From Prorocentrum cordatum (taxonomy: Eukaryota; Sar; Dinophyceae; Prorocentrales; Prorocentraceae): a stretch of DNA of 64,000 nucleotides. The DNA is taken from the NCBI GenBank assembly GCA_963575745.1, contig CAUYUJ010015706.1:237001-301000 (forward strand). Direction: 5' to 3'. The notes under the pieces are model-generated. The model was not told where the DNA came from. It searched no databases and saw only the letters and a list, made by a program, of their open reading frames with translations. The translations under genes and the position numbers were made by a program. Positions 1 through 61,685 of this stretch are shown here, in pieces (within the stretch, counting starts at the first letter, position 1; every line of letters starts with the position of its first letter).

Positions 1-321
1 TTGCAAAGGTGTAGGAACAGGTTAGAGATGAAAGAGGCTACCCAAAACGTGCACCACGGCCATACAGAGCCGTTGCGCTGCAAACATCACACAGAACACG
101 ACAGAAGCAGAGGCATCAAGCGAGAAAGCTTCCTCCGCCACGAACAGCCACGCCCCGCGCACACACAAACCTAAACACCATTCTGCAGCACATCCCTCCA
201 CAGAGCGACCTCCGTCGAAGAATCCACGGAGGCCGTCTAGTTTTTTTTTGCTCGCATGTTCATTAAGGGAAGTATGGAATACAACGTAGCAATTTCTGGT
301 TCTGGCCAACCATGTCAGCCT
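1..321 (-). pseudogene. LINE-D-family ORF2 C-terminal fragment (permuted RNase H tail)
   Basis: The minus-strand translation gives LTWLARTRNCYV, LDGLRGFFDGGRSVEG and CVMFAAQRLCMAV, closely matching the last ~95 residues of the LINE-D ORF2. It keeps the first-strand aspartate motif (FDGG) but lacks EN, RT and the GDS/ADRL half of RNase H. There is no own start codon: the listed frame opens on TTG at the junction. The position corresponding to the catalytic Glu reads V (CVMFAAQ versus CEMIAAQ in LINE-D), so the domain would be inactive even apart from truncation. Confidence 0.8.
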
Positions 322-4339: not shown

Positions 4340-7300
4340 GTTGGTGCAGCCATCCCCTGTGGGCTGGATGTACCCTGAAAAACGTGATACTCTTGAAGTA
4401 TCTTGCAAGCAGAGCGGGCAAGTCTCGAAGCGGCCTCAAGCTCACACTGAGTAACCGTCGCATCGGGAAGCAGGCCACAAGCCTCCTCCGCCAACGGACG
4501 GGTAAACGTGTGCAGGCAATCACTAACCCCTTCCCCAGATTGCTCACTGATGAACTCACCGTCTAGCCACCATCCCCCCCCAGCACCTGCACTGCTAACG
4601 CCACCGTCGTACGCACCACGGATTGCGATCAATGTTTCAGTATTGTTTATATGTTGTTGAATGCTTCTGTACCTCGATTGTAATGGTAGATGTCTGATTT
4701 CCCAAGTCAGTCGGTCGGCACGGTCGTTGCCTTCACGATAGTGATGACGCCACAAGTCATATCCTGTGGCTGGGCCCTGCAGCTTAAAATTTCGACAGGC
4801 ATCGTCTAACAGATCAATAACCTCCCCCACCTGCGATCGGTATATATTGTTGTTGCAAGTCCACCTTCCCCTCATCCAGCTGGTTATTAGCATGGAGTCG
4901 CCCAACAGCTCCATCGCAACTCCGCCTCGTCGCTCGAAGCGGACCTCATTTTCAAAGTTTGCTGCGAGACGCCTGGCAATACGATAAAGCGCCGTCTGTG
5001 TATACTGATTGTCCTCCTCCTCCTCCTCTCTGTGTATCTGACCTCCCTCCTTCTTAAAGATAAAGCCCTCCGTCATATGTGAAAATCCCGCCGCGCCCAG
5101 TCGGGCCGTAGCAAACGCGCGAAAACCACGTTCACTCCAGTCGAGATGATGCCACCAGTTCACACCAGCAGCCTGCACAAATAAGAAGTCCCACGGCCTG
5201 CAGCCTGTAGGTAACCTCCTCCCTGTTAGTCTGGTTATCTCCGTCCTCCTCCCACTAGCAGTAATCATAGCCTCCCTCCTCTCCGTCCACTCCCCCAAAC
5301 CATGCAGCATCGCAACACGTGAAAGAACAAAGGGCCTCGACACGTCATCCGACACAGGTGGTGCTGGTGTCGGAGCCTCACCAGGCTGAGTGGTCGAGAG
5401 CCTCTGTCGTTGGCCCCGCACCGTCTCACGGAAGATTCTCGCACGCTGACGACGATTGGCATGCGCCTCCTCCCCCGACGCACGCGCTAACATAGGTGCA
5501 CACGTATGCATACAAGCGAACGATGCCGCATCCTTTGCCCAGTCAAACTGCTTTCTGAGAAATCGTTGGACCAATGATTGGAAGCCGTACCTAGCAAAGT
5601 GTTGGCGACCATAGCGCAGCCGCCTCTGAGTATACACGGTCCAATCCTCACTCGCCTTCTTACGCAGACCACCAATGATCGCCAGCAGTTGACCCTCCCA
5701 CGCATATAACATCTGAATAGTCCCCTCATCCGCCGTCATACCTTCGCATGCATACAAAACAATAGACTGCACTCGTGCAATGTAACGCATAAAACGGCCA
5801 CGCAAAGGTAACTGTCTACAACGATAGAACTGTACATCACACATCCACGCACGCCTGGCACGCTGTAAATGACAAAGTAGATCCCGATGCTCACACCAGT
5901 CATCAAAGAGTTCCACTCCCAGAGCCGACATCTGTCGAAGACGTGGCAGGACCAACTCCTCACCATACTCAGGGACCCACACACGAAGCTCGGTATCAGA
6001 ACAGCGAGGCCAGCCTCCACACAAGAGGTATCCCAGCGATGAGGGTTTCCACCGCAGGCCCGCCTGAGCCAACGGCACCGTGAGCATAGACATCATCTCC
6101 CGAAGTTCGTCCAGGGTCCGTGCACACACATACAAGTTGTCCGCCCACAGAGCATGCGTAATCCTCCTCCTGCCTCCACTCAAGGGGGTCTCCAATTCAT
6201 AACCATAGTCGTTCTCCTCCCACTGCCGTACCACCTTTTCCCAAAGATACACCGAGACAGCCTTGAACAAGAAGGGGCTCCCCACTCCTCCCGTGCGGGT
6301 ACTCCTATCCCAAGACACCCAATCCGTCCACCGCACACCTTCAAAGGACATCTGACACACGTTCTCACGCATGGGCTCCAAGAGGGCAAATATGAGCTCC
6401 GAGGGGAACCCCAATGATACCAGACTGTTATACGCCAACGTCAACGTCACCTGGTCGAAGCACTGTAGTACGTCTGCACTCCCAAGATATAATGATTCCC
6501 CTTTGCCCCAGAGACACGCGTGCTGTGAGAGCCTCTTAAGTACCGCCGTAATTTCATGTGGTTTCCTACCTGACGCAAAGCCGAACAAGCACGTATGAGG
6601 TCGGAGCTTAGTCAACTCTTCCTCCGCAAGTACAGTGAGACACAGGCTGTACCATTTGGACATAAGAGGTATGAGGCATATTTTACTAGTGTCTTTGAGT
6701 TGGGTCATTTGGGGGCTTTTCGAGATCAGAGTGACAAGGAATTTTCTCCAGAACTGCGGCGTGAGATTCTCCCGACAGGCCAGGCGCTGAAAGAAGTCAC
6801 GTACACGGCGCACACACGCCCAAGGAAGTAACTTGAGCATTTCGGGCGACACGTCATCGTATGACGCTGCTCCTCCCCTCTTGAGTCGTGCACGAGCTCG
6901 CAACACAGGGGACATGCGAATGTCTAGTGTCCGATGCGAGGCCGCTGCTGCACACCTCGCCGTCTCCAACGTCTGTGCACTAGCCCTGCGAGCCTCCTCG
7001 CATTGAATAGTGGCACAAGCAAACCGTCCGATCTCCGCCTCCCACTCCTCCAAGTCCTCAGATCTATGAATACTACCGTCCTCCTGAACCACCTCCAGTA
7101 CCTGATTGTGTGTACGTTTACTCCGTACTTCCCTGGTAAATTGAAATCTGACCAGTTCAGCCTGGCACCTTCTCTTCGCAGGTCGGAACCGCCGTCGTGA
7201 CTGTTTGCAGTCCTCCCACCTCCTCTCCCTCCTGAGCTGTTTCATGTCCTCCTCCATCCTCCACAACTCCTCTGGCTTCTTGGGACGTTGGACCTGTCGT

Positions 7301-9555: not shown

Positions 9556-9726
9556 TGCAACTGCTGGTGGGTAACCGAAATCACTCGAGTCAACGCTCGG
9601 AGGCAGCCTCCAACTTTCCCACGAAGGGCTGGGTTGTGAATCCCACGCCGTGATGGGCGTGCACACTGAAACAGGCAATGAAACGTGTACTCTGACAATC
9701 AAGAAATACGAACTCCAAACAGTCAA

Positions 9727-10180
9727 TGAGAGTGTACTCCGACAGTTAGTGGATGTGTACTCCCACCGTCAATGAAGTGTACTCCGACAACCAATGAGTA
9801 TGTACTCCCACAATCAATGAGTGCGTACTCCGACAATCAATGAAGCGTGTATTGCAACAGTCAATGAAGTGCGTACTCCAACAAACAATGAAAGAATACT
9901 ATGCGCAGCCTCTCAATGATGATGTACTCCGGCAATCAATGAATGTGTACTCCGACCAACGAAGACAAACTCCGACAATCAATGATGTGTACTCCGACAA
10001 ACAATGAACGTGCACACCGTCAATCAATGAAGCGTGTACTCTGACAATCAATGAAGTGTGTACCGAATGAATCAAAGAAGCCTAGGCCCCCCGACATGAT
10101 GGGTCTCTCGGTGGGGTACTCTGACAATCAATGAATCTGCTCGCCGACAATCAATGAGCACGTGCGATACACAGGCCGTG
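9727..10180. repeat. ~22-bp minisatellite in LINE-A 5' leader
   Basis: About 18 imperfect copies of a unit like GTACTCCGACAATCAATGAA, with spacing varying from 19 to 26 bases. It lies immediately upstream of ORF1 and is likely part of the element's 5' UTR or promoter region. No spliced leader is recognised at this 5' end. Confidence 0.75.
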
Positions 10181-11255: not shown

Positions 11256-12784
11256 ACAGGTCGTTTCTCAAGCCTAACCCTACGGGCGAAGTTACGGGTT
11301 ACACTAAAGATGGCCTCGCAGAGGCTCGATAAAGCTTCGAATTCAGCGTTCATGGCAGAATTTTTTGGGGGAAGGCCAAACGCCTTCGATTTGATCAGCA
11401 CCCATTGTGGTCTATCCAGAAAGGCAAAGCTCCCATATATTGAATGAGATGCCGATGCTTTGATCAATCCCTCCAGCCACCAGCCTGCTCCTGCTTTACC
11501 GTTATCGACTCCACCGTCGAAAGCGCCCCGAAGGGCATAAAGGTCATACTCCTGCAGCTCGTGTGTCCTATCATACTCTATATCTCTGACGCGTGCAATG
11601 TGAGTTAATTCATCCACCCGCTGATTTCCCTCCCGATTGACATGCTTACCTATGTCTCCTCCGACCGTGGCTCCGACAACGTTAAACTCTTCATGCAACT
11701 CGTGAAACTCATGTTGTATTTCGGCAATCTGTCTGGCATATGTTCGGTTTTGGATCTTCCACTCCCCGTTTAACCACTTGATCGTGGCCATGTTATCTCC
11801 CTGGATCTCCACTGGCAAACCTCGTGCAAGCCCCTGTTCGTACTCCCACCAGTCCGTCATCGTCGCGAAAACATGTGCGAGCCTCTTGGCCTGCTTTGTA
11901 TTCGCCGCCCGTGTTGGTGCCTCCCCCTCCTCCTCCCATGTGTTTGGTCCCACACGCTTTTCCCTTTCCTGCTTAAAGTGTCGATCAAATGCAAGTCCAG
12001 TCCTTTGTTTGATATGCTCAATCCATGCTTTCCGCGTCCCCTCATCATGTGTCAAGTGTTTCCAATACTCATCTCCCCGAAAACTTTCAAATGTCGCATG
12101 CCACGATGTCTGACCTATTGCCTGGCAATCAATCCTCCGACGTTTTTCTGACACTTCTGGGCTCTTCCAGCTTTTACTCAACAACCCGATCGCTTCATTG
12201 TACAAGTCCCGTCTCTCCGTCCAACGTTTCATACCATGGAACATCGCCAACCTTGCTGTCATAAAACTGCGGCACACACTTGTTGATTCACGCCAAGCTC
12301 CAGAATTCTGTTGAATGCAAGCAGCACCTGTCGCAATGTCCGCCGTCTTCAAGAAAGAGCAACAATCCTTATTCCACTCCCATTGTTTCTGCAAGTACAA
12401 CTCTACAAGGCTGGCGTGTTTTTCCCGAAACTCCCCCCTGGCAAAGTTATATGCTCTGACATTGAAGCTGAACCATGTTTCATTGGCCTTTTTTTCCGCA
12501 CTCCAACTATTTTTATCCAACAACGTCCCTCAAACTTGTGAATATCTTGCAATGCCGATTTGTCGATGCTCGATCCTTCAACACTGTACAAGAAAGTGCT
12601 CTGTACTTTGCTCACATACTTATCTCATTTCACCGTCCACGGCACCGACCGACACCGATACAAACTGATGTCTTGAGAGAACGCATGCTGAGCTTTCTGA
12701 ACCCGATACTGCACGTCCAAGTGTGTCCTCATTCGAGTGTGTAGCCAAACACCCAAGAAGGTAATCTCCTGCACTCGCGGATCG

Positions 12785-13977: not shown

Positions 13978-16900
13978 CTAGGGTCCCTCACGCCCTCTCA
14001 ACCTCTTTGGGGTTGGAGGCCCGAGGATCTCAGAGATAATCTGCCGAACACCTTGGAGCAGGCGTTCACAAGCTGTGAGCTCGCTATCTGTAACAGTGGC
14101 CCCCAGAAGGGAGTAAAGAAGCCTCCTGGAAAACTCGTCGCCAGCGGTTGTCCCCAAATGAGACCTCCACATAGCAACCTAGAGCAGAGCCTTCAACACT
14201 CACGCCACCGTCCCATCCTCCACGGATACGTTTGATACAATGTCTCTGTTGTCGTAAATATCTGAAGTCAATCCATCTTCCCGTCCTTCCCCTCCTCGCC
14301 TCCCAAGTCAACTCATCCGCAACACAATTGAACTCTCTGTAGATATGCTTCCACGGATCCGCCCCTACAGTGGCACACCTGATGTCGTAATCCTCCGCCA
14401 GTTGATTCATATCGTTTTGTAGACCGTGCACTCTCCTGCGGTACGAACGATCACGGCATTCCCAGATCCCTCGGGCCCAGTTCACCACACACATACTATC
14501 ACCAGTCATTTCAACCAACAGTGAGCTCTCCAAGCCCTCCTGCCAGACAGTTTCGTTGTTATATCCGTGGGCAATCCTACGAGCGAGCCTGTCGGAGTCC
14601 TCAGGGGAGTCCCACGTATCCACAGGGCAAGGAGCACAGGGCGGTTTCCTGAAGATGGGCTCCCATCGAGGCTGTATTTTTGTCATGCACGCAACTACAT
14701 TCCACCAGTCCGTCGCATTCCACTTGATGCTGAACCAACGTAAATTACCACTCGCCGCCAGCATAAGACAATGCCAGCTGTCAGTGCTTGCATGCGCTCT
14801 CCCTCCCACTCTCCTCGTACCTTCCCTCCTCCTGGCTCCCGTGAACATGGATACAAGTGTGTCCCTCCGTAGTGACCATTCCCCCGCACAGTGTAACATG
14901 GCCTGCAGCGTCTGACGCCAGGCTCGTGCCCCACGCAAGTCCGTGGAGGCGAAGGCCCGATCATGAAACTGGGCCAGCTCCAACGCAAACTCGAAATTGG
15001 CTCGGACCACCCTCTCTAGGAGACTGCAGTGGCCAGCCTGCAAGAATAGCTCGTATGACTTCGGTGTGGTCCTGTCCCTGAACTCCTCCCACGTCTCCTC
15101 CTCCCTCTTGTGTAATCCTCGCATACCGTTGAGACACCTCCCCTCCCAGACCTTAATCCTCTCCAGCAGTCGTAGATTGCACGGCCAGCCTATACATCCG
15201 TGGTACACCACAGACTGCACACGAGCGGCATACCTGCGAAACTTCTCTTTGAGTGAGACCGATCTGGAGCGATAAAACTGGATGTCGGCAAAATAGGCCT
15301 TCCTCCCTTTCTCCAGTCGATGATACAAGCCGTGATATCCCTTGATTTCCGAGCTGAGCTTCACTCCTAGTACCTCCACCTCCTCCTTCCTCGGCATAAC
15401 GACAGTAGAGCGCAAGTGCTCTGGGAGATCCTCATCTCCAGAAATCGCACAGATGGCTGGCGAGAGCGGGCAGAGCAGCGGCGGATCGCCACCTGTGTAC
15501 GTCTGGCCAAAAAGTACATACGCCAAAGAGTCCTCCTTCCAGTCCATCCCAGCCCGTCTGAGTGTTACCGTCATCATACCGATCATCTGTTGTAGCTGGA
15601 GCTGCGATGCAGCACAGAGCGCAACATTGTCCGCCCACAAGAAGTGGTGTACAAGAGCACCGTCCGTCCCCTCCCCTTCCAGTCGGACACCGTATCCTAA
15701 GGTATCCCAAGTCTGAATCACAGATCCCCAGATGGCCTCCAAGACAATATTGAAAAGTATGGGTCCCTCCTTACCTCCCGTTCGGACCGATTTGTTGTAT
15801 CTCACCTCATCGCCGCACACGTTCTGAAACTCAAAGGTAGCAATGTTATCCAGCATGGGCTCCACAATGGCTCTGATGAGGCACACAGGGTACTTAAGGT
15901 ACAGCATGGCCTTGATGATAGTGTGCAGTGTGACATTATCGAAAGCTTTGTGAATGTCCAAGACTCCCACGTGCATAGACTCCGCCTTCCCCCACACATT
16001 TGCATGTCTAGTAAGATGTGATAGTGGTGCTGTGACGTTAGTAACCTTCTGATCCTTTTCAAATCCGTATGTGCACAACCGTCGGTTCACAGGAAATACA
16101 TCAATAAACTGCAACACACATGCCATGTACCATTTACTCATCACACTGATCAGGCAAATCCCTCTGGTGTTGGAGAGTCGTGTAGCATCCCTCATCTTCG
16201 GCACAAGTTGGATACTGAGCTGCCTCCACGTCTCAGGGCTGGAGGCTCCCTGCTCGAAAATCCTCTGGAAAGCACGCCGCACAAACAAGAGGCTCCTCCA
16301 CGGCAACTCACGAATGACCTCCGCAACGACTCCATCGCTGCCGGGTGCCGTGCCAGGCTTCAAAGACGCACGAGCCTGCATGAGCATGCCCATCGTGATG
16401 ACTCTTCCCTCCACCCCACGGTCGTTGTGTCTGAGTTCCTGAAAGGCCTCCAAAGTCCGTTTTTCCTCCTCCGAGTTCGTGTAAGACGCCGTCGCATACC
16501 TAGTGATCTCCGTACTCCACCTAGTCCTGTCCATTGTCAGCACACCCTCACACTCCAGCTCCTTGAGGATACACCGTGAGGTCTTACTGGATCCCCTGTG
16601 GTCCTGCAGGAGTTGGTTCCTCCTATGCTGTCTCCTAAGGGTCTTCCTCCTACGCAGCAGTTGTTTACGAGTATTCCCAAGGGCCCCACGCCTGATGGCA
16701 GACTCCACCTCAATGAGCTCCCTGGGCCTCTGAATAGGTTTGCAGTTGGGGCGCCCCTTAGTGTGGTCCACAAGCTTTGCCGTCTCCAAGAGTACCCGTC
16801 CGACCTGCTGCAGGTCCGTCCCTACCGTGTCCGATGCAAGTCCCTCAATCGACACATCCGCAAGCACACGAAACATGTTCCTCGCCGTGTCGTCCGTCGG

Positions 16901-17764: not shown

Positions 17765-18862
17765 ATGATTCGGGCACCGTAGTGTCTGAAGAAACTGCAC
17801 CTGATTAATATCGGGCTCAACGTGTGTCAAATTATCACCATAGAGGTTCCATCCTTTTGTCGGTCCCCATTATGCAATCAAAATCTTTTGTGTAGTATCA
17901 TCAGCATTCGGCATATACCACATATATGTCATTGGCGGACCCGTCTCACCTCGAAGAATAGCCGTCGCATTTTTCTTGATATCAGAAAATAGTGCTTGAA
18001 ACCGTCCTACCGCCCGAACATGTTCTATCTTCCATGGCTGGCATTCAACTTGAAATCGCACATTGGGAGGTAATGAAGTGAGTCCCCGCCTGTAGTCATT
18101 CTCCCACACACGTTTCGCTTCCCATAGGATCTCAGAGGATGCACCTGGCTTGAAATAGATCCTACCCCTCGTGTACGGCCAATATCTACCAGTATTCTCC
18201 TGAACCGTCCGATCCAAGTCCAGTGCCACCCTCTGTGTAGCATCAATTTGTTTAGAGTCAATGAGGCCATTCATCGCCGTCGTCAGTGCCTCCTGTGACA
18301 GAGCCTCCCGCTGACGTATCTCACGGTTCCTCCATCCCTCCCTTGAAACCCACCCTTTGAACTCAACATAACGTGGATTCCAACCAGGATCGTGCCTGTC
18401 CGTACCCGCCTTCGTGGATCCACTTGCTACCGACAGCCCGTCCCCCTGCTTGAGCTTCTGAACTTCATTGGTGAGGTCCTGGATCGCCGATTCTGTTTTT
18501 GATACCCTGGAGTCCAGAGATGTTTTCAGACCGTCCATTTCCGTACGAATAGAGTTCCTGAACGATTGCATGTCAGCCGTCATAGTCTGTTGTCCCGTCA
18601 TGATGGATCGAAACATCTGTTCAATGTCAAGGCCTGCTTCCTGGGCAACCTCATTCGCACCCAACGTTTGCCCCGCACCTCCTCCTTCTCCTTTCCCTGC
18701 TCCTTTGACATTACGAGCACGGACAGCTCTAGCAAACGCCCCACCCCCATCATCAATTGTCATGTCCTGGCCCACCGCATGCAAGCCTGGAGCACCTGAA
18801 ACTGAAGAACCTGCTGGCATCGCTGGTGCAACACCTGAAACTGAAGAACCTGCAGCAGCCAT
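17762..18862 (-). pseudogene. LINE-C ORF1, premature TAA near the C-terminus
   Basis: The first ATG is at 18862; the frame is open without ATG back to about 19105. Motifs are a coiled coil (TSLDSRVSKTESAIQDLTNE), then NPRYVEFKGWVS, YTRGRIYFKPG and VECQPWKIEHVRAVGRF. A TAA at 17870-17872 interrupts it. The next codons give GWNLYGDNLTHVEPDI, which aligns with GWTIRDEIKSYEPNLDI at the end of LINE-A ORF1. The TAA is therefore probably a mutation and the true terminator is the UGA at 17762. Upstream of the ATG a 45-bp tandem duplication codes FVQGEGYDFNILR twice. Confidence 0.75.
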
Positions 18863-19212
18863 CTTCCTTTTGTGGCTGCGTAAGATATTGAAATCGTAAC
18901 CTTCACCCTGCACGAAGTGGTTACGCAAGATATTGAAATCGTAACCTTCACCCTGCACAAACGGTACTGTTGGTGTGAGCGATGGCACACAAATAACAGC
19001 TCTCCTGTCACCTCGAGGTGTCCCGACCTGTCTAGCAAGATAGTCCCAGTCCGCGTGACTGAAGTCAGATCCCCAGCACTCCGTCGTTCCAAGAGAGAGG
19101 AAAAGAGACTATTGCCGCAAACAAGTGCAGGCAGCCTAGCCCACACAATAACAATAACAAGTGCAGCGGCCTAGCTGACCTCGATCTCGCTGAACCCGAA
19201 GAAGACGAAGAA

Positions 19213-19981: not shown

Positions 19982-22900
19982 TCAGCTGCTTGGATGAAAG
20001 ATGCTACCCAAAATGTGCTCCACGGCCATACAGAGCCGTTGTGCTGCAATCATCTCACAAAACATGACAGAAGCAGAGGCATCAAGCGAGACAGCTTCCT
20101 CCGCCACCAACTGCCACGTCCCGTGTACACACAAATCTATACACCATCCTGCAGCACATCCCTCCACAGAGCGACCTCCGTCGAAGAATCCACGGAGGCC
20201 GTCTAGTTTTGTTTTACTCGCATGTTCAATAAGTGAGGTATGGAACGTAACGTAACTATTTTTGGTTCTGGCCAACCATGTCAGCCTGTCAGCTCTTTCG
20301 TTTCCTTCTCGATAGATCCACTTGAACATATTGTGGCCCCAACTCGGAGGCCTCATACCATACAACACAGAGATATGCTCCAGCCTATTTTGAATGTCGC
20401 CAAGAATGTGCTTGTAGATAATATTGGATGTTGCCCAGAGACCGTTAATCCAATTCACCCCTGTGGCGGAGTCCCCAATCAATTCCATCGGTATCGAGTC
20501 CCGAGGCTCCGCATTCCACTCCGATGCATGTTCATTAATGTACGCAAGTCGTTTCTCCATCTTCTCGTCCTCCTTCCTTTGCTGCTCCTCCGTCTTCTCC
20601 CTCTCCTCCTCCTCCCTAGCATATCCCGCAGGTTGTGCATGTTTAAAGTAACAGTACCCCCACGCCTCCTCCATGTTAGTAACATCCAGTGCCCGCTTCA
20701 GAAATTCTTTCCATCCCTGACGTGAAAAGGATAACGTGTGATACCAATCCTTCCCTGATACCAACTCGAAAATGTAATGGAAGTTTCTCAACGCCAGTGG
20801 TCTCCCCCCCTCATGCCGACGCGTCATTAATGGGCGTTCTTTCCAAGGCAGCGATGCAATGAAGGCCTGCCGTCGGTCAGTCCACTCCCCCGACCATGCA
20901 AAAATACATTCTCTAGCCTGCATATGCGAGTCCCCTGTACTACGATGCTGAGGTGGAGCCACCCGTCGCCGCTTGTTTGCAGCGATTTCCTGCGACGGCA
21001 ACTCAACAGAGGAACGCTTTTGCGACAGAGAATCCTGAGATGGATGGAATGTCTTTGCACGCTTATGCATCTGGGAAATCAGATTGCGCCGATGCGCGGG
21101 TAATTGTGTCTGAGAACCAGGGAGCTCAAAGGAATCAACAGCATGCATCGTCTCACACACGTCAGGATGACATCCCATTGATGTCGAGCACGCAATACTT
21201 GGTAGCACATACATGGGTTCATCCTGACGTTGTCTCTTGGCCGGCGGTGGCTCACACGCAGCAAAGACGTTGGGGCCAGGCTTGCCTGAAGAATCAAAAG
21301 TACCTGGAGGAATCTGTGCGGGTGTTGGGTTCAGGCGTTTCACAGTAAACGTACAGTCCTGAGCCCACTGCCACTGACGAAACAAGAATAGCTGCACAAG
21401 AGACGGCCGTCCCAATTCCAGGAGCATACGCCGCCCACGTTTGTACAAGTTGCATAAGTATATACTCCAATCCATGTCGGCAGGTTTCGGGCGGCGTACC
21501 ATAGAACACAATATTTTACCTTCCCACGTGTGCAACTGTTTCAAAGTGTGGTGGTCCGCTGGCATGCCTTCAACACCGAAAAGTACAAAACTACGCAACC
21601 TAGATTCATAATGCTTGATTTTCTTCTGGAAGGGTACAGCACGATTCGTATAAAACTTGCGGAACTGGTTAAATCGCTTCCAACCCCGAGCCAATTTCCA
21701 AGCCACATCATGGTGTTTGTCAGTCTTGGTCGTGACCAGGCAACCCAGGCACTCCATTTCAGAGCATCGCGGAAGACACAGGGTACCGAGATCGTTCACC
21801 TGGACAACGAGGTTCCCCGTCGAGGCGCCTTCAGAGTCCTCCCCAAAGGCAAGATAGTGTAGTGAGGAATCTTTCCATCTGAAACCGTGCGTATACAGCT
21901 GAGCCGAGAAGTCCCCCACCATACGTGTGAGCTCAGTCTTTGATTTCGAGAAAAGCAAAATGTTATCGGCCCAGAGCGCATGAGTAAGATACCTCCCACC
22001 AGCCTCCACCCCCAAATCGTACCCCAACTTCTCCTCCTCCCAATTCAGTACAATCCTATCCCACATCAGTAGTGTCACACACTTCCACAGGAAGGGGGCC
22101 TCCACACTACCAGTACGTACACATGCATCCCAGGGAATACCCGTCGCCGTGGAGTCCTGAAAGGTAAAGTCCGCTGTGTCCAGGATACTGGGAGCGAGTA
22201 GCGCCAACGCCAGGTCATTGGGGAACCCAGGGATGGCATCCAAGGCCCGACTGGCCTTCTCAACCGTGACGTTATCAAAGGCAGTCTGCACATCTAATGA
22301 CGCGAGGTGCAGGGTCTCATCTTTCCCCCACTCCAGAGCGTGTGTGGTGGCATGCTTAAGCATGGCAGTGATCTCGTGCGTGCGCCTTCCCTTGCAAAAT
22401 CCGTAGTTATGTAGATATTGTGGGACCCTTTTCAGATAACCTTCAGCAATCTCAACCAAACATGAAGTATACCATTTGCTTAGGCTGCTAAGTAAGACGA
22501 GAGCACGAGTATCAGACAACTTAGTGATATCTTTAGCTTTCGGCATCAACACCACAAGCAACTCAGACCAAATCCGAGGAGTAGGATACCGTTGAAGATA
22601 CAGGTCTTGGAATAACCGAAGAATATGACGCAAACCTACCCACGTGATACGTTTCAACATAGAAGGAGAAACTCCGTCCTTACCCACCGCCTTACCACAC
22701 TTTAAGCGTGATCGTGCCTGTAACAATACGGACATGGAAATGGGGGAGACGTCCACTGTGTTCGTGTCCTGCAACCTCCTCCTCCTCCTCTCCTCGATAC
22801 ACTCCACGTTACGTATCCCTTGCGCAGCACAGTGGTACTTGGCGAACCCGTGAGCATAGAGCGCCTTCTCCCACAACTCCCTATCCTCCGTGAGCACATC

Positions 22901-24160
22901 GTCATAACTCAATTTGTCCACCACCGTCCGAGCGAGCTTCCCGTCACGATGATCGTATTCGAGTCGACGACGAGTGTGTGCACGCATCTCCTTCCTTCTC
23001 TCTTTCTTAACCCTGATGAGCTCCTCCTCCTCCCCTCCTTCACGACGCAGTCGGCGATATTCATCATCAAGTTCCTTATGACGATCTGTCTTTTTGGGGA
23101 TCTGCATTTTCTTTGGGACATTGGTGTATGACTCCTTGTCCTGTGTACATGCATTCAAGATAACAGGAGCCAATTCATCCGGGCAGAGACCAGATGGGTA
23201 ACGAGCTGCAGCATGCAAACGACGATCAAGGTTAGCCGAAACTTGCAATTCCGAGGCTTCGTCGCAGCACCAATGAGTGAACGTTTGTCGTGGCTTCGTT
23301 CTCCAACGTCGAGTCGGAGCGGCCGATTCGGGGACAAGCAAGGTGAGCAGGGCATGGTCCGACAGGCGGGTCTTTCTGGGGTCCACGGAGCCCCTGAGTG
23401 TTGGCCTTAACCACGACACCTCCCACTGAGGCCTTTCCCAGGAGCTCGGAATACACAGGTAATCAAGAACCTTGTCCTCCTCCTCCGTCTCCTCCCTGGC
23501 CTTCCAGGTCGTACGACGGGTCCCAAAAGAATTCGAGAAAACCAAATCATAATGCCACATACATTCACAGAGCTCGTCACACATGTATTGTTGCATCCTC
23601 CTCCTACCCTGCTGGAAACCTCCACGTCCACCTCCTCCTGCATTGTCCCCTTCTTCAAATCTCTCACCCTGCACTGCAGAACCAGTCAAAGCAACATCTC
23701 CAAATACCGTGTGAGGCAGAAGCTCAACGTTAGCATCCATCCCGATGAACAAGTCCCACCCTTCCTTGGGAAACCTAACTCGGAGCGTATCCAAATCCTT
23801 TCGAAACGACTGCAATGTTTGTGTGAATAAGATATTGTGATCCCCTTTTTTCGGCGCATGTGGTAAGTACAAGCTGGCAACAATCAACGATTGAAACACG
23901 AGAATGACATAACGATTACCCCTGATGCATTCACGTATGGAGGCTCTCCACACCCTCTTGTAGAGAACCCCGGCCTTCCCATCATTAGAAAGAGTTAAGG
24001 TGAAACCATGCTCAGAGCACCTACCTATTCCAAGGAACTGGCACTCCTGCAAAGCGAGAACTTCCGAATTCGAGGTCTTGATCTGAGCAAGCATGTCGTG
24101 GCTGTTCATGCTGCCACAGCGCCTCACGTTATACGTGCCCACGATGGCGCCATGGCACCT
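19982..24160 (-). CDS. LINE-D ORF2: APE endonuclease - RT (WADN) - circularly permuted RNase H, uninterrupted
   Basis: The single open frame follows the UGA at 24161; numbering here counts from the GTG at 24142 (1386 codons). Endonuclease: TYNV (N5), LQEC (E33), IGMDANVE (D136, N138), SDHALL (261-263). RT: SLDVQTAFDNV (D617, D623), VRTGSVEAPFLW (676-686), HALWADNIL (W724-N727). A long connection region includes basic KRXR patches (~968, ~1057). RNase H: LIGDSATGVNWINGLW (D1224), GNERADRLTWLAR (D1285), GFFDGGRSVEG (D1321), FCEMIAAQRL (E1363). The spacings D1224-D1285 (61) and D1321-E1363 (42) match canonical RNase HI spacings of 64 and 38, but the order of the two halves is swapped. This is the best-preserved ORF2 in the window and could be functional. 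Confidence 0.92.
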   Translation of the reverse strand, partial: RCHGAIVGTYNVRRCGSMNSHDMLAQIKTSNSEVLALQECQFLGIGRCSEHGFTLTLSNDGKAGVLYKRVWRASIRECIRGNRYVILVFQSLIVASLYLPHAPKKGDHNILFTQTLQSFRKDLDTLRVRFPKEGWDLFIGMDANVELLPHTVFGDVALTGSAVQGERFEEGDNAGGGGRGGFQQGRRRMQQYMCDELCECMWHYDLVFSNSFGTRRTTWKAREETEEEDKVLDYLCIPSSWERPQWEVSWLRPTLRGSVDPRKTRLSDHALLTLLVPESAAPTRRWRTKPRQTFTHWCCDEASELQVSANLDRRLHAAARYPSGLCPDELAPVILNACTQDKESYTNVPKKMQIPKKTDRHKELDDEYRRLRREGGEEEELIRVKKERRKEMRAHTRRRLEYDHRDGKLARTVVDKLSYDDVLTEDRELWEKALYAHGFAKYHCAAQGIRNVECIEERRRRRLQDTNTVDVSPISMSVLLQARSRLKCGKAVGKDGVSPSMLKRITWVGLRHILRLFQDLYLQRYPTPRIWSELLVVLMPKAKDITKLSDTRALVLLSSLSKWYTSCLVEIAEGYLKRVPQYLHNYGFCKGRRTHEITAMLKHATTHALEWGKDETLHLASLDVQTAFDNVTVEKASRALDAIPGFPNDLALALLAPSILDTADFTFQDSTATGIPWDACVRTGSVEAPFLWKCVTLLMWDRIVLNWEEEKLGYDLGVEAGGRYLTHALWADNILLFSKSKTELTRMVGDFSAQLYTHGFRWKDSSLHYLAFGEDSEGASTGNLVVQVNDLGTLCLPRCSEMECLGCLVTTKTDKHHDVAWKLARGWKRFNQFRKFYTNRAVPFQKKIKHYESRLRSFVLFGVEGMPADHHTLKQLHTWEGKILCSMVRRPKPADMDWSIYLCNLYKRGRRMLLELGRPSLVQLFLFRQWQWAQDCTFTVKRLNPTPAQIPPGTFDSSGKPGPNVFAACEPPPAKRQRQDEPMYVLPSIACSTSMGCHPDVCETMHAVDSFELPGSQTQLPAHRRNLISQMHKRAKTFHPSQDSLSQKRSSVELPSQEIAANKRRRVAPPQHRSTGDSHMQARECIFAWSGEWTDRRQAFIASLPWKERPLMTRRHEGGRPLALRNFHYIFELVSGKDWYHTLSFSRQGWKEFLKRALDVTNMEEAWGYCYFKHAQPAGYAREEEEREKTEEQQRKEDEKMEKRLAYINEHASEWNAEPRDSIPMELIGDSATGVNWINGLWATSNIIYKHILGDIQNRLEHISVLYGMRPPSWGHNMFKWIYREGNERADRLTWLARTKNSYVTFHTSLIEHASKTKLDGLRGFFDGGRSVEGCAAGWCIDLCVHGTWQLVAEEAVSLDASASVMFCEMIAAQRLCMAVEHILGSIFHPSS
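20000..20490 (-). other. Circularly permuted RNase H domain (LINE-D)
   Basis: Canonical order is D(beta1)-E(alpha1)-D(beta4)-D(alpha5). Here beta4 (GDS) and alpha5 (NERADRLTWL) come first, then beta1 (FDGG....G.GW) and alpha1 (CEMIAAQ). The same order is seen in LINE-A, B, C, F, G, H and I. Confidence 0.75.
21962..21973 (-). other. RT motif C WADN codons (LINE-D)
   Basis: TGG GCC GAT AAC on the minus strand. The second Asp of the canonical box is Asn although the 1386-codon frame is intact. Confidence 0.85.
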
Positions 24161-25556: not shown

Positions 25557-25760
25557 TCAATCGCGAAGCACACAGAAGAACATACAAAGATCAAACAATA
25601 CAGCGGAGCAGATAGAATATACAAGAAGAAGAAGATTGAGAGGAGTAAAGTGCGACTGATCATGTGGATGATCAAAGAAGTTCTGCACGACCTGTGGGAG
25701 CACATCACATATACGCTCCGCCGCTGATAACTCAGTATCTGTCACAGACAACCCTCCAAC
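25557..25760 (-). pseudogene. LINE ORF2 C-terminal fragment (last RNase H helix)
   Basis: SVTDTELSAAERICDVLPQV matches the ends of LINE-C (VTDSELTACERLL), H (VTECELSAAEALL) and G/I (ITDAELSGLEGLL). Nothing upstream of it belongs to ORF2. Confidence 0.75.
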
Positions 25761-34182: not shown

Positions 34183-36395
34183 TCACTGACCAAGCTGTAC
34201 GTGTATACACAGCTCAGCAATGCCATTGAGAAGTGATTGTGCAGCTGCCAACTCAGCCTGTGTGATCGTGCAGTGGCTAGGGATCATGAAACCTCTGCGG
34301 CCAACTCCAAGGTGCCATCCGCCCTGAACAAGTCCAGGGGGAAGCTGGTGAGGAGGAAGAGAGGGAACAAGATAAGCATCAATTACCCAACCACACGAAG
34401 TGCCACGTTCACACCGCCCACCATCGAAAGCTCCTCTAAGTGCACGAGCAGTAGAATGACCCGATCTAATATGATAAAGAATGTTAAGATTCCAACGAAC
34501 CTCACAAGTTACTTTACCTTCACGTGCAAGATGTGTCTCATGGTCCGCCTCATCGTTGCCCTCCCTATACACCCATTTCCACATATCCCTTCCCACTTCG
34601 GCCGTGACGAGATGATGGTCCTCACTCATTATGTGAAGGCGGTTCTGCATACCCTTGATCGTGCGGCGATATACTTCATTGTGACAGCGATATCGTCCAT
34701 TAAGCCAGCGCACAACACACTGGCTATCCCCACGGAGCTCCAAGCCATATCCACCCCCTTCCCCACGCCAAGTGGTTTCATCAACATTTATCGCGGCCAG
34801 TCGTTTCGCCACCCGTTCATTTTCCCGTCGTTGCTGCTCCGCTGACTTCTCCCCCCCCTCCTCCTTCTGCTTGAACTCACCCGTGAAAGGATCCCGAAGA
34901 AGGCAGAAATCGAGAAGATCATCCAAGTTCAGGGCGGCCAGGGTACCCACCAGGAAGGAACGCCAGCCAGTTTCATTCCAGACCATCGTGCGATCCCAAT
35001 GAGCCCCGTGCGTGTGCTCGAAAATCTCGAACCAAGGCCTAAGTCCCGTCAAGACCCGATGACGACAAGCTCTAGTAGCCCGTCGACCCCCAGGGAGAAC
35101 TCTAACATGTACGTCGCGCTGCTCAGTCCACTCTCCCGACGCGTGCATCATCGTCAAGGCGCTCTGCATGCTAGCAGTGGGCAATCCTCCTCCCTCCTCC
35201 CGTGCATAGGTATGGCGTACCCGCTTACGAACTGGCTCATGTACATGTTGTGATTCATGATGTTCATGTGCCGTGCTCTCCGATATACGTCTGCGAACCG
35301 ACCTACTCTCCAAGGAAGATGCGCTCTGTGCCTTTCTCCTACACGAACTGTTACGCTGTCTGGCATTCAGGATAGGCGAGGGAACCGATAACTCCAGGGA
35401 ACGCTGCGAACCACCAAAAATATCAGGATCTCGTGGCTCATGATAAAGAATGCCCTGACTGAGTGCGTCCTCATCCACCCGACTATGCTCTCATGGATCG
35501 TGCTCACAACATGTTTGGCGAAGAGCCACTGGCGATGAAGGGCGAGCTGGACCATCGAAGGCTTACGGGCCCACTTCAATAAGCGACGGCCACCTTTAAT
35601 CCTCCTGCCCCAGTACTCTCCCCAGGACTCCGTGATCTTCTTTTTGAGACGCCTCATGGTAGACAAGAAATTGCCTTCAGCTGCATGTATCTGTTGGAGA
35701 CTACCAGAATCCAAAGTCGTACCCTCCAAGCCGTACAGGAAGCAACTTCTGACCCTGCTATCATAACGCTGAAACTTACAACGAAGCGGAACCACGGGCG
35801 ACGAATAAAAAGAAATCTCACTCATAAAGACCCGTCGCGCCTTCTCCAGCCGATGCTTAATGTCTTCATGATCCTGAAATCGCACGTCCGATAGTGTGCC
35901 AAGAACTTCCATTCTCTCAACCTGCCTCACTATCATCGCCTCCGAAGGACCTGCGGCGCTCTGGGAAGCCCCACGAGGACGCTTCCTACCAACCTCAGCA
36001 GACAGGAGCCCCGGCACAGGCAGGCGGATATCCTGCAATGGACCTTGGACGCCACAAGCCAAGAACTCCATCGAGGATGCTTTCCAGTTGAACCCGAAGC
36101 GGTGGAGGACCCCAGTCAAGTCCTCGAGCATGTGGGTCAATTCTCGCCTGGAAGCCGCTGCCAGCAAAATATTGTCTGCCCACAACCAGTGGTTGACCAG
36201 GAGATTGGAGGCCTCATCAGTGAGCTGGACGCCGTATCCAGACTGTCTCCAACCTGCCGTAACTGGTGCAAGCATACGAAGGGTCTGCGCAACAAATAGC
36301 AAAGGCGCCTCCAAGGAACCTGTACGAATGCAAGTATCCCACGAAATGGTCGTCGAGCACTGTTGGAAGCTGTGGAACCTCGGGAGCTCCTTGCA
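34183..36395 (-). pseudogene. LINE-F ORF2 fragment: RT motifs B-C to permuted RNase H, one frameshift
   Basis: The upstream frame (36395 to ~35480) has DTCIRTGSLEAPLLF, WLWADNILL (WADN at 36171-36182) and thumb/connection (YDSRVRSCFLYGLEG). A one-base frameshift near 35465-35480 leads into the frame ending at 34183. That frame carries RGDSQCVVRWLNGRY, EGNDEADHETH, GAFDGGRCERGTSCGW and ITQAELAAAQSLL. RNase H motif order is the permuted one. 5' truncation removed endonuclease and RT motif A. Confidence 0.85.
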
Positions 36396-38256: not shown

Positions 38257-39313
38257 CTAGTCTCTCTGCAGCTGGAGGTCTTGGGCCACCTGGGCTGCGG
38301 CCCGCAAGAGGCCCTCGAGACCCGAAAGCTCAGCGTCAGTGATACTGCTATGGGAGGGGAGTGCCTGTGCACAACGCCCTACTACTTCCCATATGATTGG
38401 ACAAGGAGAGGAGGCTTGGGGGAAGAGGGAGACTACACGAGCTCTCTTATCTCTATGCTCAGGGTCAGGGTAAGGGTCATGGAATCGAGGGATATATCCA
38501 ATCTGCAGAAACCAACCAACGCCCACACCTTGGGCACACACTCCGCCGTCGAAGGATCCGCGGAGGCCAATAACTCGAAAGTTGTCTTGGACATCAGGAC
38601 GAAAGATATGGTGGTGGAACAGCTCTCTGAATATCTGGCCTTCCCGTGCTAAGTGGGTAAGTTCATCAGCTACTGTGTTACTCTCTCGATATATGTGTCG
38701 AATGAAGTCGTTGCCCCATGAGGGGGGTCGTATTCCTTCCTCCTCCAACTCTTCCAAAAGAGAAATAATATTTGCCACCCGCCTACGATAAGAAGCCCCA
38801 TCTCCTCCTTCTCCTCCCTCAACCTTCCAGAGACCATTGATCCAGTTACAGATAAGAAGCGAATCGCCCGTCAGCTCAAGACCGATCCCATCATCACTCA
38901 GATCCCAAGTCGGCTCCTGTTCATTGTTCGAGGCCAATCTCTGGGCCAGCTTCTCGGACTCCTTCGCCGACAACGGACGAGCCAACATCTCCTCCCCCCT
39001 CTCCTTTATGTAGTCTCCTCTCCCTCCAGTTCCTCCACGGACAACAAACAAGTCAAACAGAGACCCCAAAGTACAAGCTTCCAGGAACTGCCTGCAATAC
39101 TGAACGAAGTCAGAGTAAGAGAAAGAGCACGCCCTCCACCACCGATCCTCCAGATTCACAAACGAGGGAAATATCGTCTGGAACATGAAACACCAAGGAT
39201 GTTCACCCGTCGCCTGCCCCTTAGTACTGCCTAATCGTGTCAGTTTCGAGGCCCCCTTCCACTTCCACTGGGAACGCAAATATTTTGACTCAAGTGTCCT
39301 TTTCTCCTCCCAC
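38257..39313 (-). pseudogene. LINE-G ORF2 C-terminal fragment: permuted RNase H
   Basis: Uninterrupted over ~350 codons: WKWKGASKLTRLGS, then LTGDSLLICNWINGLWKV, ESNTVADELTHLAR, GSFDGGVCAQGVGVGWF and ITDAELSGLEGLL, ending QDLQLQRD. It lacks endonuclease and RT. The frame runs upstream into satellite, which is not part of the protein. Confidence 0.88.
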
Positions 39314-46224: not shown

Positions 46225-49200
46225 TTGTTTGTTTGTTTGGACTCGCGTTCCCAGCTGGGTGCAGCTGGGCGAGGACCGGTCCCGCAGCAACACACGGGCA
46301 GCGCTGAGCAGCGCTTCGGCTGCCGACAATTCACATTCTGTGACTGTAGCTCCTTCGAGGAGCCACGCGGCCTCGGCCACATCCCTCCAAACGAGGGGCA
46401 CGGCACTAGAAACAGCAAACTCATGCCCAGCAGGGAAGGGGCCCACGGTTCTCGCGGAAGCGATGCCTATCTCACTGGGATTGCACTGAGTATTGATTAA
46501 GCCGATCTGAAGCCAGAAACCACATCCTGATCCTTGCTGGTCAACCCCGCCATCAAAGCCTCCCCTGATAGCGAACGGTACGAGATAAGTTTCGAATGGA
46601 TATAGATAACAATGAGTTCTGTAGAATGTGCGGCCATATCTGGCCTCATGCGTCAATTCATCCGCTCGTGTATTGTCCTCCCTGAATTCGTGTCTCCATA
46701 TCTCACGTCCCAAGGCAGCGGGCCTCAGATTGAAACACGCAGCGAGCTCAAAGGTACAATCAATCATGGCAGCTGTCCTCTTGCAGTAGCCACGATTCTC
46801 ACATCTCCATTTACCCTGGAGCCAGGAGCAGATAAGTAGTGAGTCACCCTTGAACTCAGCAGCAAAACCCTCTGACGATATGTCCCACACAGTCGCACGC
46901 TCCTGGATCATCGCATATCGTATTGCAAGCTTGGCGGACTCTTTGGGGTCATACTTGGGGTGCAGAGGGTTGGTCGCGGTGTCGACCATCTGAGTATCGG
47001 CCTTCTCTCGAGCCTCAGGGGAGCCTCGAGGTCCATTGGAGAGCCCTTCCAAGACACCACAAAGTAATCATAGACCTTAGATTTGTTGTATTGTATAAGG
47101 AGTTGCTTCCATACCTCCAAGAATTGAACCCAATCACCCCGTACAGACTCCCACCACTTTTCCCCAAAGAACTGAATGTATGGGAACTGCCAAGACCGTC
47201 CGCCCACAGACACAGGGCCTCCACGAAGCCGTTTGCCCGAACTAGATAAGGCCCTGTTGCCGTGTTGTCGTAGAACCTCTGTTATTGTATCGCGAGCCGT
47301 GATCCAGCCCACATTGTACATCATAAGTGCACGTCGGGAGTCGCGAAAGGCCCTCCTCCCTCTTGAGACGGCAAGTGGCTCGTCTCTGAGAGCTTGGGCT
47401 GCTCCCTCTCCAGAGGGCATCGGCTGTGAGCGGGCAATGGAACAGGCGACCTGCGTGCATAGATCCTCCAGGCGTCTCTCCATATCCGTAATCCTCCCCT
47501 CCACCTCCATCATAGTCGTAGCAGGAACATCCTCCCCCCGTCCCTCCGTAAAGCGAACACGTTTAGCACGTTGAGTCGTTGATCCCTCCACCTCAACCTC
47601 CGTCCTTGCCGTCCTGTCCTCCTCCAAAGATAGTAAATATTGCCTCGTGGAGCGCATCATGCCCCAGCTCTTCCAGCACAGCATCTGCACAGCCGATGGG
47701 AAACCCCCATCGCAGAAGATTGTCCTGACTCGTGTCAGTGCAGCTGGCCGCCATACCTCCCACCCCACATCTCCTGGCTTCCTCCTCCCTGACATTCTCA
47801 GAAGACACATACCCTCGAACGCATGGATAACCCTCACACACTCACTGTCAATCGTGATGGCCTCTGCTGCATATAAAAGGCGGCTCTGCACAGTCGATTG
47901 ATATCGACGAAACTTCTTCACCAGAGGCAGCGCCCTGCACGTAAAATACTGCACCTGCGCAAAGAACGCCCGTCGGGCCTGCTGGACGCGCTCCTGCACA
48001 TCCGCGTGGACAGCAGTGAAACTTCTGGGAATCTGATACCCCAGCACATTCAAACTCTCAACATGCTTGAAAGGTACAATCCGCGAGCCAATCTGAACCG
48101 TGACCGTATCTGTGTACTGAGTACCACACACCATCATTTCTAAACTCTCCTCCTTCCACTCCATCCCCCAATCCCTGAGAGCAGTAGTGAAGGCAGTGGC
48201 TGCTACCTGCGCCTCCGATGCTGACTTGGCGGCCAGAAAAATATTGTCGGCCCAGAGAGCATGATTCCATCGTGCATACCGGCAGTGATCATCATGGCAT
48301 GGCATCTCGACTCCGACACCGCGCTGGTCCAGGCGAGCAATCACATCCCGCCACATAGCAATAGTGACAATAGTAAACGCGATAGGTGATTCGGTACACC
48401 CAGTACGGAGCGACCTGTCCCACTGCACATTTGGGATTGTCACTCCTTCAAACAGCACCGTGCATGAGGTAGATGAAAGAGGCTCCAATAACGCATACTG
48501 TAACCTTGCACTGATCCCCAGGGCCGTCATCGCTCTCGAGACTGTCGGCAGCGTCACAGCATCGAACGCCCGCTCGATGTCACAGCTGAGGAGCCACGCC
48601 GTTTGATCTCGCCCCCATGTGGAGGCATGCTGTGCAATACATTTCATGGCCGATGAAATCTCCCAGCAACGCCGTCCGCTGGTAAAACCGTAGATCGCCA
48701 TATCACTCATGAAGGGTTCCACACATCTTTCCAGTAAAATCGTCACGCACGTGAGATACCACTTGGCCAGGGTATTTCCAACAAGCAGGTTCCTTGTTTG
48801 TCGCAATGTTTCCAGTTTACTCGTTTTCGGCATAAGTGTTAGGTATACTTCCTGCCATTCCCTTGGCGTCGGGCGAAGCCCGTTGAATATATCAGAGAAA
48901 ACCTTACCAATAGAACGCACTGACCTCCACGAAAGAGCCTTGAGAAGTTCAACCGAGATGCCGTCGGGCCCACAGGCCCGTCCTGTTCGGAGCCTGCTCC
49001 GCGCCTGCAGAATAGTAGAGTATGTGATCGTAAGTGTGTTGTCCGAAGAGGCTGTTGATTGAGATGCATGGCGACGCAATGTGGACACAAGCTCCCGATT
49101 GCGGGCTCTGGAGTCATCACAAGTCATACTCTGCACAGCATATCGCTCCACCTCCTCCGCCCATAGTTCCCTGTCCTCCGTCATCATAGTCGTAGGCCCC

Positions 49201-59660: not shown

Positions 59661-61685
59661 CTAGTCTCTCTGCAGCTGGAGGTCTTGGGCCACCTGGGCT
59701 GCGGCCCGCAAGAGGCCCTCGAGGCCCGAAAGCTCAGCGTCAGTGATACTGCTATGGGAGGGGAGTGCCTGTGCACAACGCCCTACTACTTCCCATATAA
59801 TTGGACAAGGAGAGGAGGCTTGGGGGAAGAGGGAGACAACACGAGCTCTCTTATCTCTATGTTCAGGGTCAGGGTACGGATCATGGAAGCGAGGGATATA
59901 TCCAATCTGCAGAAACCAACCAACGCCCACACCTTGGGCACACACTCCGCCATCGAAGGATCCGCGGAGGCCGATAACTCGAAAGTTGTCTTGAACATCA
60001 GGACGGAAGATATGGTGGTGGAACAGCTCTCTGAATATCTGGCCTTCCCGTGCTAAATGGGTAAGTTCATCAGCTACTGTATTACTCTCCCGATATATGT
60101 GTCGAATAAAGTCATTGCCCCATGAGGGGGGTCGTACTCCTTCCTCCTCCAATTCTTCCAAAAGAGAAATAATATTTGCAACCCGCCTACGATAAGAAGC
60201 CCCATCTCCTCCTTCTCCTCCTTCAACCTTCCAGAGACCGTTGATCCAATTACAGATAAGAAGCGAATCGCCCGTCAGCTCCAGACCGATCCCATCATCA
60301 CTCAGATCCCAAGTCGGCTCCTGTTCATTGTTCGAGGCCAATCTCTGGGCCAGCTTCTCAGACTCCTTCACCGACAAAGGACGAGCCATCATCTCCTCCC
60401 CCCTCTCCTTTATGTAATCTCCTCGTCCTTCAGTTCCTCCACGGACAACAAACAAGTCAAACAGAGAACTCAAAGTACAAGCTTCCAGGAACTGCCTGCA
60501 ATACTGAACGAAGTTAGAGTAAGAGAAAGAGCAAGCCCTCCACCACCGATCCTCCAGATTCACAAACGAGGGAAATATCGTCTGGAACATGAAACACCAA
60601 GGATGTTCACCCGTCGCCCTCCCCTTAGCACTGCCTAATCGTGTCAGTTTCGAGGCCTCCTTCCACTTCCACTGGGAACGCAAACATTCTGACTCAAGTG
60701 TCCTTTTCTCCTCCCACCTCGGGGTACAACACATCAGAAGCCGACGTGCGTCTCGATGCGCTCGAGGAAACACCGTCTGTTGTCCAGGTCCAGGGACTGC
60801 CACCCTCCGACGCTTCGGGGGGGGCCTGGGGGGATCCCTAAGCCCCCCCCGCTCACAGGGAACTTCATTATCTCGAGAAGAAGAGGCCCTATCAGAGGGC
60901 AGAGCAGAAGAGACCATCCCATGCATATCCGAAGAGACCACACCCATCCCATTCGTATCTGAAGAGACCGCACCCATCCCATTAGTAACTGAAGAGACCG
61001 CACCCATCCCATTGGTAACTGAAGAGACCTCAACCATCCCATTGGTAACTGAAGAGACCGCGACCATCCCTGGGCTCAGCTCCGACTCAGAAATCTGATA
61101 TCCGCTATCAGCATTGGCTCCGAAATATGATGCTATGTCCGCTCCAAGCTGCCACAAGGAATAAAGGACTCTCTGTACTGCGCTCTGGCACTTGGCTTCA
61201 AAGAACATCCGTCTAGCAATTCTGAGTCGAGCTGGCTTCCAAACTACCCAACTTTCGGAGGCTGGCTTTTGGGGTGACGTCATCTGGTAAAGGCAATTTC
61301 CCTCAAAGACATTCAGGCTATGCAAAGAGTCCCTGTCCCAACTAATACCTTGACTTCCATAAGTAAGAATGCTCTGAACCCGAGTGATATAACGCCTACA
61401 CTTGGCCGAAAAAGGGACTGCCTTCGATCTAAAATAAGCTGCATGCGCATGAAAGGCTCGTCGTGCAGACCCGATCCGTCGCTGAAGGTCTTGGTGCGTC
61501 TCCCTATAGCTACAGTATATGCTGTTCCCCAAGACATTCATCTCGTCAACTACTTTGAACGGCACCATCTGATCCCGAACCCGAACCAGGATAGGATATT
61601 TTGGCTTCTCCGAGAAACCGATAAACGCGACCTCGAGCGACTCGATCTTCCATTCGAATCCCCATCCCCGCAGAATCTCTGTCAT
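59661..61685 (-). pseudogene. LINE-I ORF2 fragment: RT thumb/connection and permuted RNase H
   Basis: Uninterrupted 674 codons without a natural start. RT tail (RGWGFEWKIESLEVAF, VDEMNVLGN, FRSKAVPFSAKCRRYITRVQ). A repeat region of ~11-residue units (VSSVTNGMGA, codons ~205-265). Then a region shared with LINE-G ending in LTGDSLLICNW, ESNTVADELTHLAR, GSFDGGVCAQGVGVGWF and ITDAELSGLEGLL. The open frame indicates a young copy, but endonuclease and RT motifs A-C are missing. Confidence 0.88.
60890..61075. repeat. In-frame ~33-36-bp minisatellite in LINE-I
   Basis: Five to six units of GAAGAGACCGCACCCATCCC plus ATT(A/G)GTAACT. Confidence 0.8.

Follow-up and report, generated by a model that had tools for sequence, protein, structure and literature searches.

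Ribonuclease H (RNase H) is among the oldest and best-studied of protein folds and a classic model of protein folding. Whether its chain order has been altered in nature is the question raised by a 64-kb stretch of Prorocentrum cordatum DNA (hereafter the window, meaning the whole of that stretch), in which the LINEs considered here lie on the minus strand. A sequence-only reading had proposed that the ORF2 proteins of eight of these elements (A, B, C, D, F, G, H, and I) end in an RNase H whose two halves have exchanged places. A natural permutant that is apparently active throughout a retrotransposon clade would show that chain order can change without loss of function, and its family would provide a ready set of sequences for folding and design work.

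Arrangement of the RNase H motifs in the window

The ORF2 of LINE-D runs from an endonuclease-like N-terminus through a reverse transcriptase (RT) with the motif LWADN and a connector to a putative permuted RNase H at the C-terminus (Table 1). Its RT is matched by PF00078 at residues 549-761 of the ORF (37.8 bits, cut-off 29.6), and the same profile exceeds its cut-off in the ORF2 of A, C, D, and H. Endonuclease motifs were read by eye at the ORF2 N-termini of these four elements, and Exo_endo_phos (AP endonuclease) matches LINE-H at 17.6 bits, below its cut-off of 24.5. The LINE-D protein matches an "unnamed protein product [Prorocentrum cordatum]" at 99% identity over 96% of the query. The RT of LINE-H (46908-49706) occupies another frame than its RNase H. 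ORF1-like proteins lie upstream of the ORF2 of A, C, and H (8515-9768, 17870-19108, and 50495-52225, minus strand) and share, by eye, a conserved segment (PWK..H) close to their C-termini.

RT motif C reads W-A-D-N, not Y-x-D-D, at window positions 21973, 15637, 6147, 48254, and 36182 (minus strand), as located by a scan for [WF]AD[ND] only, which covers five RTs including that of F. The YxDD box is absent, and WADN present, in all four aligned RTs (A, C, D, and H). Judged by this motif, the W-x-D-N RTs are a lineage in which the second catalytic Asp is replaced by Asn.

Table 1. Positions of the LINE-D ORF2 and of complete and partial permuted RNase H copies in the window (HMM, hidden Markov model)
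Feature	Position	Strand	Details
LINE-D ORF2	19982..24160	-	1392 aa stop to stop; one stop-free frame
LINE-D N-half (canonical second half: beta4 Asp, R, alphaE Asp)	20255..20503	-	half-domain HMM 128.4 bits
LINE-D C-half (canonical first half: beta1 Asp in FFDGG, alphaA Glu in CEM)	19991..20200	-	half-domain HMM 88.5 bits
LINE-A permuted RNase H	4378..4926	-	N-half 4926-4690, C-half 4626-4378; half-domain HMMs
LINE-B permuted RNase H	11279..11824	-	N-half 11824-11585, C-half 11536-11279; half-domain HMMs
LINE-C permuted RNase H	14023..14521	-	C-half split over two frames near 14105
LINE-F permuted RNase H	34189..34755	-	N-half 34755-34510, C-half 34443-34189; half-domain HMMs
LINE-G permuted RNase H	38263..38895	-	N-half 38895-38632, C-half 38568-38263; half-domain HMMs
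LINE-H permuted RNase H	46279..46872	-	N-half 46872-46627, C-half 46572-46279; half-domain HMMs
LINE-I permuted RNase H	59667..60299	-	N-half 60299-60036, C-half 59972-59667; near-identical to G
Truncated LINE-D-like copy, C-half alone	34..234	-	alphaA Glu reads Val
alphaA-like scrap of a C-half	25677..25751	-	half-domain HMM E 0.004

Half-domain HMMs run against the six-frame translation of the window place the N-half first and the C-half downstream of it in eight of eight copies. The chain order is beta4-alphaE-beta1-alphaA in every copy, in place of the canonical beta1-alphaA-beta4-alphaE. The exchange proposed for the eight elements is thus borne out in its order, with one reservation: the two halves share an open frame in seven copies, and in LINE-C a frameshift breaks the C-half. 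In LINE-D, GDS...RADRLT...FFDGG...CEM follow one another in a single frame. The motifs as originally worded do not fit every element, since GDS is replaced by GDN in B, FDGG by YDGG in A and WDGG in C, and N/ADxLT by ADHET in F. The within-half spacings given for LINE-D, 61 and 42 residues, are as stated. Among the copies read the beta4 Asp and alphaE Asp are 61-66 residues apart; the beta1 Asp and alphaA Glu are separated by 42-74 residues in six window families (A, B, D, F, G, and H), a range due to a variable loop. A linker of 32-40 residues joins the alphaE Asp to the beta1 Asp, and 22-62 residues lie between the alphaA Glu and the stop in A, B, D, F, G, and H.

With the family's own HMMs, no second beta4 half was found in the window downstream of alphaA, and the C-half HMM has no match upstream of any N-half, in agreement with the earlier statement that no beta1-like motif precedes GDS. 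A second beta1-alphaA half elsewhere in ORF2 was rejected on the same grounds. The canonical first-half HMM likewise has no match in these frames, a weak test because that HMM also misses the real C-halves.

Homology of the two halves to canonical RNase H

The identity of the C-half is the weak point of a permutation, because single-sequence tools see the N-half only; the C-half gave no significant match in such searches. An HMM of 81 canonical RNase H sequences matches the eight window copies weakly (iE 0.005 to 15) and over the N-half only (model positions 61-128 of 134), except for one fragment with an iE of 540. The permuted order leaves Pfam with a view of half of the domain: in native order the best RVT_3 (PF13456) score among 10 sequences is 20.1 bits, short of the cut-off of 21.6, and the match to the N-half of LINE-B is a sub-threshold one to the second half of that profile. 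Rotating single sequences brings small gains that are still half-domain matches (one of 10 reaches 21.8 bits), and after rotation and loop trimming 12 of 15 sequences match RVT_3, with a best E of 2e-6. Weak support also comes from NCBIfam in native order, where 11 of 20 members match the RNase HI model NF041175 (best E 1.2e-5), the one score printed being 13.7 bits against a cut-off of 140.

The two halves were therefore compared with canonical RNases H profile to profile (hhalign, pairwise E-values, four rounds), with column shuffles and a rotation scan as controls. In the first round, 15 permuted sequences were set against 81 canonical ones, mostly from Parcubacteria. The C-half alone gave E-values of 0.1 and 0.17 and a local score of 12.7, inside the range of its shuffles (maximum 16.7); the whole domain scored 71.6 rotated versus 65.2 native, and none of 200 profiles with column-shuffled C-halves reached 71.6 (maximum 70.5). 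A more diverse canonical set of 18 prokaryotic and phage sequences gave, in the second round, a C-half result that is not decisive alone (E 0.054; local score 15.3, shuffle maximum 15.6; global score 10.3, maximum 10.3). Rotated scores were 74.8 local and 70.4 global, where 150 shuffles had maxima of 71.1 and 63.7, and the rotation scan gave a global peak at 88 and a local plateau from 80 to 124.

The third round used as its canonical set 16 RNases H from the same genome together with LC11 and ST0753. The C-half alone then reached an E of 1.9e-4 with a local score of 27.95, above the maximum of 25.3 among 200 shuffles, and a global score of 21.9, below the shuffle maximum of 23.7. The rotated domain scored 90.9 (shuffle maximum 75.8) versus 70.1 native, and the scan peaked at columns 78-84 of 166, the junction being at 84. 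For the fourth round seven permuted sequences from the genome were added, making 22, and were compared with the same canonical set (16 plus LC11 and ST0753). The N-half aligns with the canonical second half at E=5.5e-15 and the C-half with the canonical first half at E=1.1e-5, its local score of 33.7 lying far outside 300 column shuffles (mean 9.9, sd 2.0, maximum 17.5), and the D and E columns of the C-half align with the canonical D and E. Rotation yields a single alignment that takes in nearly the whole domain, from position 5 to 131 of 148, at E=4.8e-18, compared with 1.1e-13 in native order. Against the 18 prokaryotic and phage sequences, the 22 permuted ones gave 4.8e-4 for the C-half, 5.2e-15 rotated, and 1.1e-11 native. 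The E-values of the C-half improved over the rounds only as the profiles did.

Among solved structures the best sequence matches are LC11 RNase H1 (3u3g), Sulfolobus ST0753 (2ehg/3aly), and 4e19, which have the canonical order and were deposited as ribonuclease H1 or ribonuclease HI, not as retrotransposon proteins. With the same 15 loop-trimmed sequences in both orders, the rotated profile outscores the native one by 0.9 to 3.8 bits across five RNase H rows at E<=0.001, which represent three distinct proteins; its alignment with 4e19 extends from position 3 to 158 of 161.

The order of the halves holds beyond the window. When the LINE-F domain was rotated into canonical order and used to query the genome, every one of the best 150 scored rows of 5,369 candidates spanned one half only (83/84/85-174 or 1/2-86/87), on which ground canonical-order copies of the F family were rejected within that scored set. 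Among the same 150 rows, an adjoining N-half row accompanies 22 of the 25 C-half rows, none being listed for the other three, and in all 22 paired places the N-half precedes the C-half, at a distance of 51 bases. A divergent permuted protein, P0017, has at least 150 matches in the genome (150 scored of 4,239 candidates). Fifteen of these loci were read: in 10 a C-half follows a near-complete N-half within one frame; in two it follows just the final part of an N-half; in two more the N-half-first order is interrupted by a stop or a shift of frame; and in one only the N-half appears. Taken together, these comparisons leave us highly confident that, at the level of sequence, the C-termini of these ORF2 proteins are circular permutations of RNase H.

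Catalytic residues, constraint, and competing explanations

None of the 22 permuted sequences compared lacks the beta4 Asp, the alphaE Asp, the beta1 Asp, or the alphaA Glu. Several of these sequences are close relatives; an alignment of 15 more distinct ones has 12 invariant columns out of 162, and the four acids occupy four of them. Arginine stands in place of the usual His, as in the archaeal-like subtype, in 20 of the 22, the remaining two having S and G. Excluded before counting were P0007 and the copy at 34-234 (both with Val for the alphaA Glu), P0012 and P0013 (without that Glu), element C with its split C-half, the near-duplicates P0002 and I, and fragments without one half. The conservation of the four acidic positions that had been claimed is therefore found throughout the compared set, and some decayed, excluded copies have lost one of them.

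Over 318 codons, LINE-G and LINE-I are separated by 28.5 silent and 6.5 replacement changes (dN/dS 0.06). Within the domain the counts are 22 silent and one replacement, divided as 14 and one in the first part plus linker and eight and none in the C-half, and the swapped RNase H is apparently maintained by selection on this measure. Twenty LINE-D copies from the lower-identity end of the 150 scored have a mean dS of 0.105 and a mean dN of 0.031, a moderately low ratio that is expected if many copies are dead; an acidic catalytic residue is lost in three, the R in one, and a stop is present in one. By these counts the lower-identity D copies are a mix of constraint and decay.

A search of 4,128,499,153 bases of the genome gave at least 150 matches to the D domain (150 scored of 21,871 candidates), a number that assembly duplicates may inflate, as they may those that follow. 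At least 56 of these, the window's own included, have the top score and 100% identity over 239 residues, and at least 39 lie within a 1392-aa open frame. For F, at least 34 rows (of 150 scored among 5,369) fall within 1422-aa frames, one with an internal stop. The suggestion of a working domain thus receives indirect support from the retained D-E-D-D residues, the low ratio of replacement to silent changes between G and I, and the many identical copies in one family.

We consider it probable that the ORF2 C-terminus is a circularly permuted RNase H of archaeal type that folds in cis and is catalytic. The RNase H chain would have been opened between alphaA and beta4 and its old C-terminus linked to its old N-terminus, so that in the permuted chain beta4 adjoins the RT connector and comes first, and alphaA comes last. 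Both halves would fold in cis into one sheet, with the four acids meeting in a single RNase H active site. In known LINE biology, second-strand synthesis requires removal of the RNA:DNA hybrid left by target-primed synthesis of the first strand. By analogy, the element-encoded permuted RNase H may cut the RNA of such target-primed hybrids and thereby help second-strand synthesis.

Other explanations differ in how much of this they dispute. That the FDGG...AEL motifs resemble RNase H by chance, the N-half alone being an RNase H remnant, would fit the single-sequence searches and the unconvincing C-half profiles of the first two rounds. We regard it as very improbable: the better profiles put the C-half alone far outside its shuffles, its D and E columns fall on the canonical ones and are retained in every compared sequence, and it shows silent changes only between G and I. 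Just as improbable is the view that two tandem canonical RNases H have each decayed to a half. A permutation could plausibly arise through such a tandem, but the family's own HMMs find no trace of the missing outer halves upstream or downstream in the window, and the other families read have the same architecture.

Two further readings accept the permutation and question what the domain does. One holds that the halves assemble in trans, or by domain swapping between ORF2 proteins, such that the enzyme works only as a dimer. The sequence would not seem to forbid a dimer, and a linker of 32-40 residues would allow either arrangement; on size, however, that linker looks long enough for folding in cis, and the adjoining, N-half-first arrangement in all 22 paired F places (150 scored of 5,369) also argues against assembly in trans, which we think unlikely. 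The other holds that the permuted fold has been retained to bind hybrids or to serve a structural role, and is not catalytic, and some copies have indeed lost catalytic residues. Binding alone would not require D-E-D-D, which is complete in 22 of 22 sequences and invariant in the 15 more distinct ones, and we give this reading a similarly small chance. A permuted RNase H that is folded in cis and catalytic remains our preferred explanation.

Canonical-order relatives, origin, and known systems

The same genome holds RNases H in canonical order. It gives 80 RVT_3 matches, many over nearly the whole profile, and the 40 that were read (20 loci and 20 fetched regions) include 31 near-complete canonical-order domains. 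Type I LINEs (e.g., L095, L097, L105, and L112) have an endonuclease-like start, an RT motif C of W-S-D-N, and a canonical archaeal-like RNase H between a finger-like stretch and the palm of the RT, an unusual placement. In type II LINEs (L114, L125, and L132) the RT has FCDD and the canonical RNase H is C-terminal. The canonical domains of L095, L112, L114, and L125 resemble the permuted ones in the motifs FDGGRR, EGDN..G.W, and HVRR.FN..AD, but differ in chain order and, for type I, in lying inside the RT or, for type II, in standing C-terminally after an FCDD RT. The permuted-type loci L164 and L166 have the RT motif LWCDN. The idea that a type I ORF had gained an additional permuted C-terminus was considered and rejected, there being no C-half HMM match in L094-L133, L169, and L170, where 3' ends were fetched for two type I ORFs only.

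In an RNase H tree, 10 permuted domains are split from 19 of 19 canonical ones with support of 90.8/98 (SH-aLRT/UFBoot). In an RT tree, five permuted-type RTs are split from the rest (99.2/99), although one of them, P0019, is a fragment too short to reach an RNase H, and the RT of H is off-frame from its RNase H. The permuted-type and type I RTs together are split from type II and P0020 (90.2/90). The trees hold few sequences with long branches; they tentatively suggest a single origin of the permutation and type I as a possible sister group of the permuted-type elements. The permutation probably arose once, plausibly through domain duplication and loss of the outer halves, and canonical-order relatives in the same genome make its origin directly studiable. 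A fuller account is possible but more tentative: an active permuted RNase H would have originated once in a W-x-D-N dinoflagellate LINE lineage, become fixed across a large and diverse clade, and recently expanded to hundreds of copies or more, the RNase H having been relocated from inside the RT, as in type I, to the C-terminus, with the beta4 start setting how the nuclease is attached to the polymerase. The permuted RNase H may also help to sort dinoflagellate LINEs.

Outside this genome, relatives are listed under the green alga Pyramimonas in EukProt (P0012, P0016, and P0018), of which P0012 is close to LINE-H by eye; they may reflect dinoflagellate contamination or horizontal transfer. 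A protein search with LINE-D alone retained none of 442 candidates, an RT-based protein search gave two matches, viral contigs gave no confirmed match, and PHROGs gave weak matches only.

Archaeal-like RNases H carry the signature D-E-D-R/H-D, according to the portions of PMC4640811 and PMC5348765 consulted here. Those of plant L1 and oomycete non-LTR elements have in common with the present family the form D-E-D-R-D, with R for the usual H, and are likewise element-encoded and adjoin the RT; the legends there list the residues as D-E-D-R/H-D, whereas here beta4-alphaE comes before beta1-alphaA, and the string "permut" is absent from the main texts of both papers. The oomycete Utopia elements are likewise non-LTR elements that gained an archaeal-like RNase H, but in the passages of PMC4640811 concerned it lies upstream of the RT, not at the C-terminus and permuted as here. 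"Permuted" in the excerpted text of PMC5408684 refers to a scaffold, and the excerpted text of the survey PMC3985635 does not contain "permut".

The closest precedent is computational: the CIRPIN preprint of 2025 (PMC12667903) reports, from AlphaFold clusters, one pair of Ribonuclease H-like domains related by circular permutation, like the present family a natural case of permutation in this fold class. In the available text of that preprint the proteins, hosts, and families of the pair are unnamed and "retrotransposon" occurs zero times; the pair could be related, which somewhat lowers the claim of novelty. The open-licence literature searched yielded no previous description of a retrotransposon with a permuted RNase H, which accords with the initial remark that no natural example in such an element was known.

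The window also contains repeats. One family, of 164-300 nt, is seen at 3398 and from 24829 towards the right end, often at a spacing of about 177 bases and with one unit present in 35 copies. A separate array at 32169-33446, partly with 90-base spacing and with a 185-nt unit repeated eight times, lies in the 4-kb bin with the window's highest GC content.
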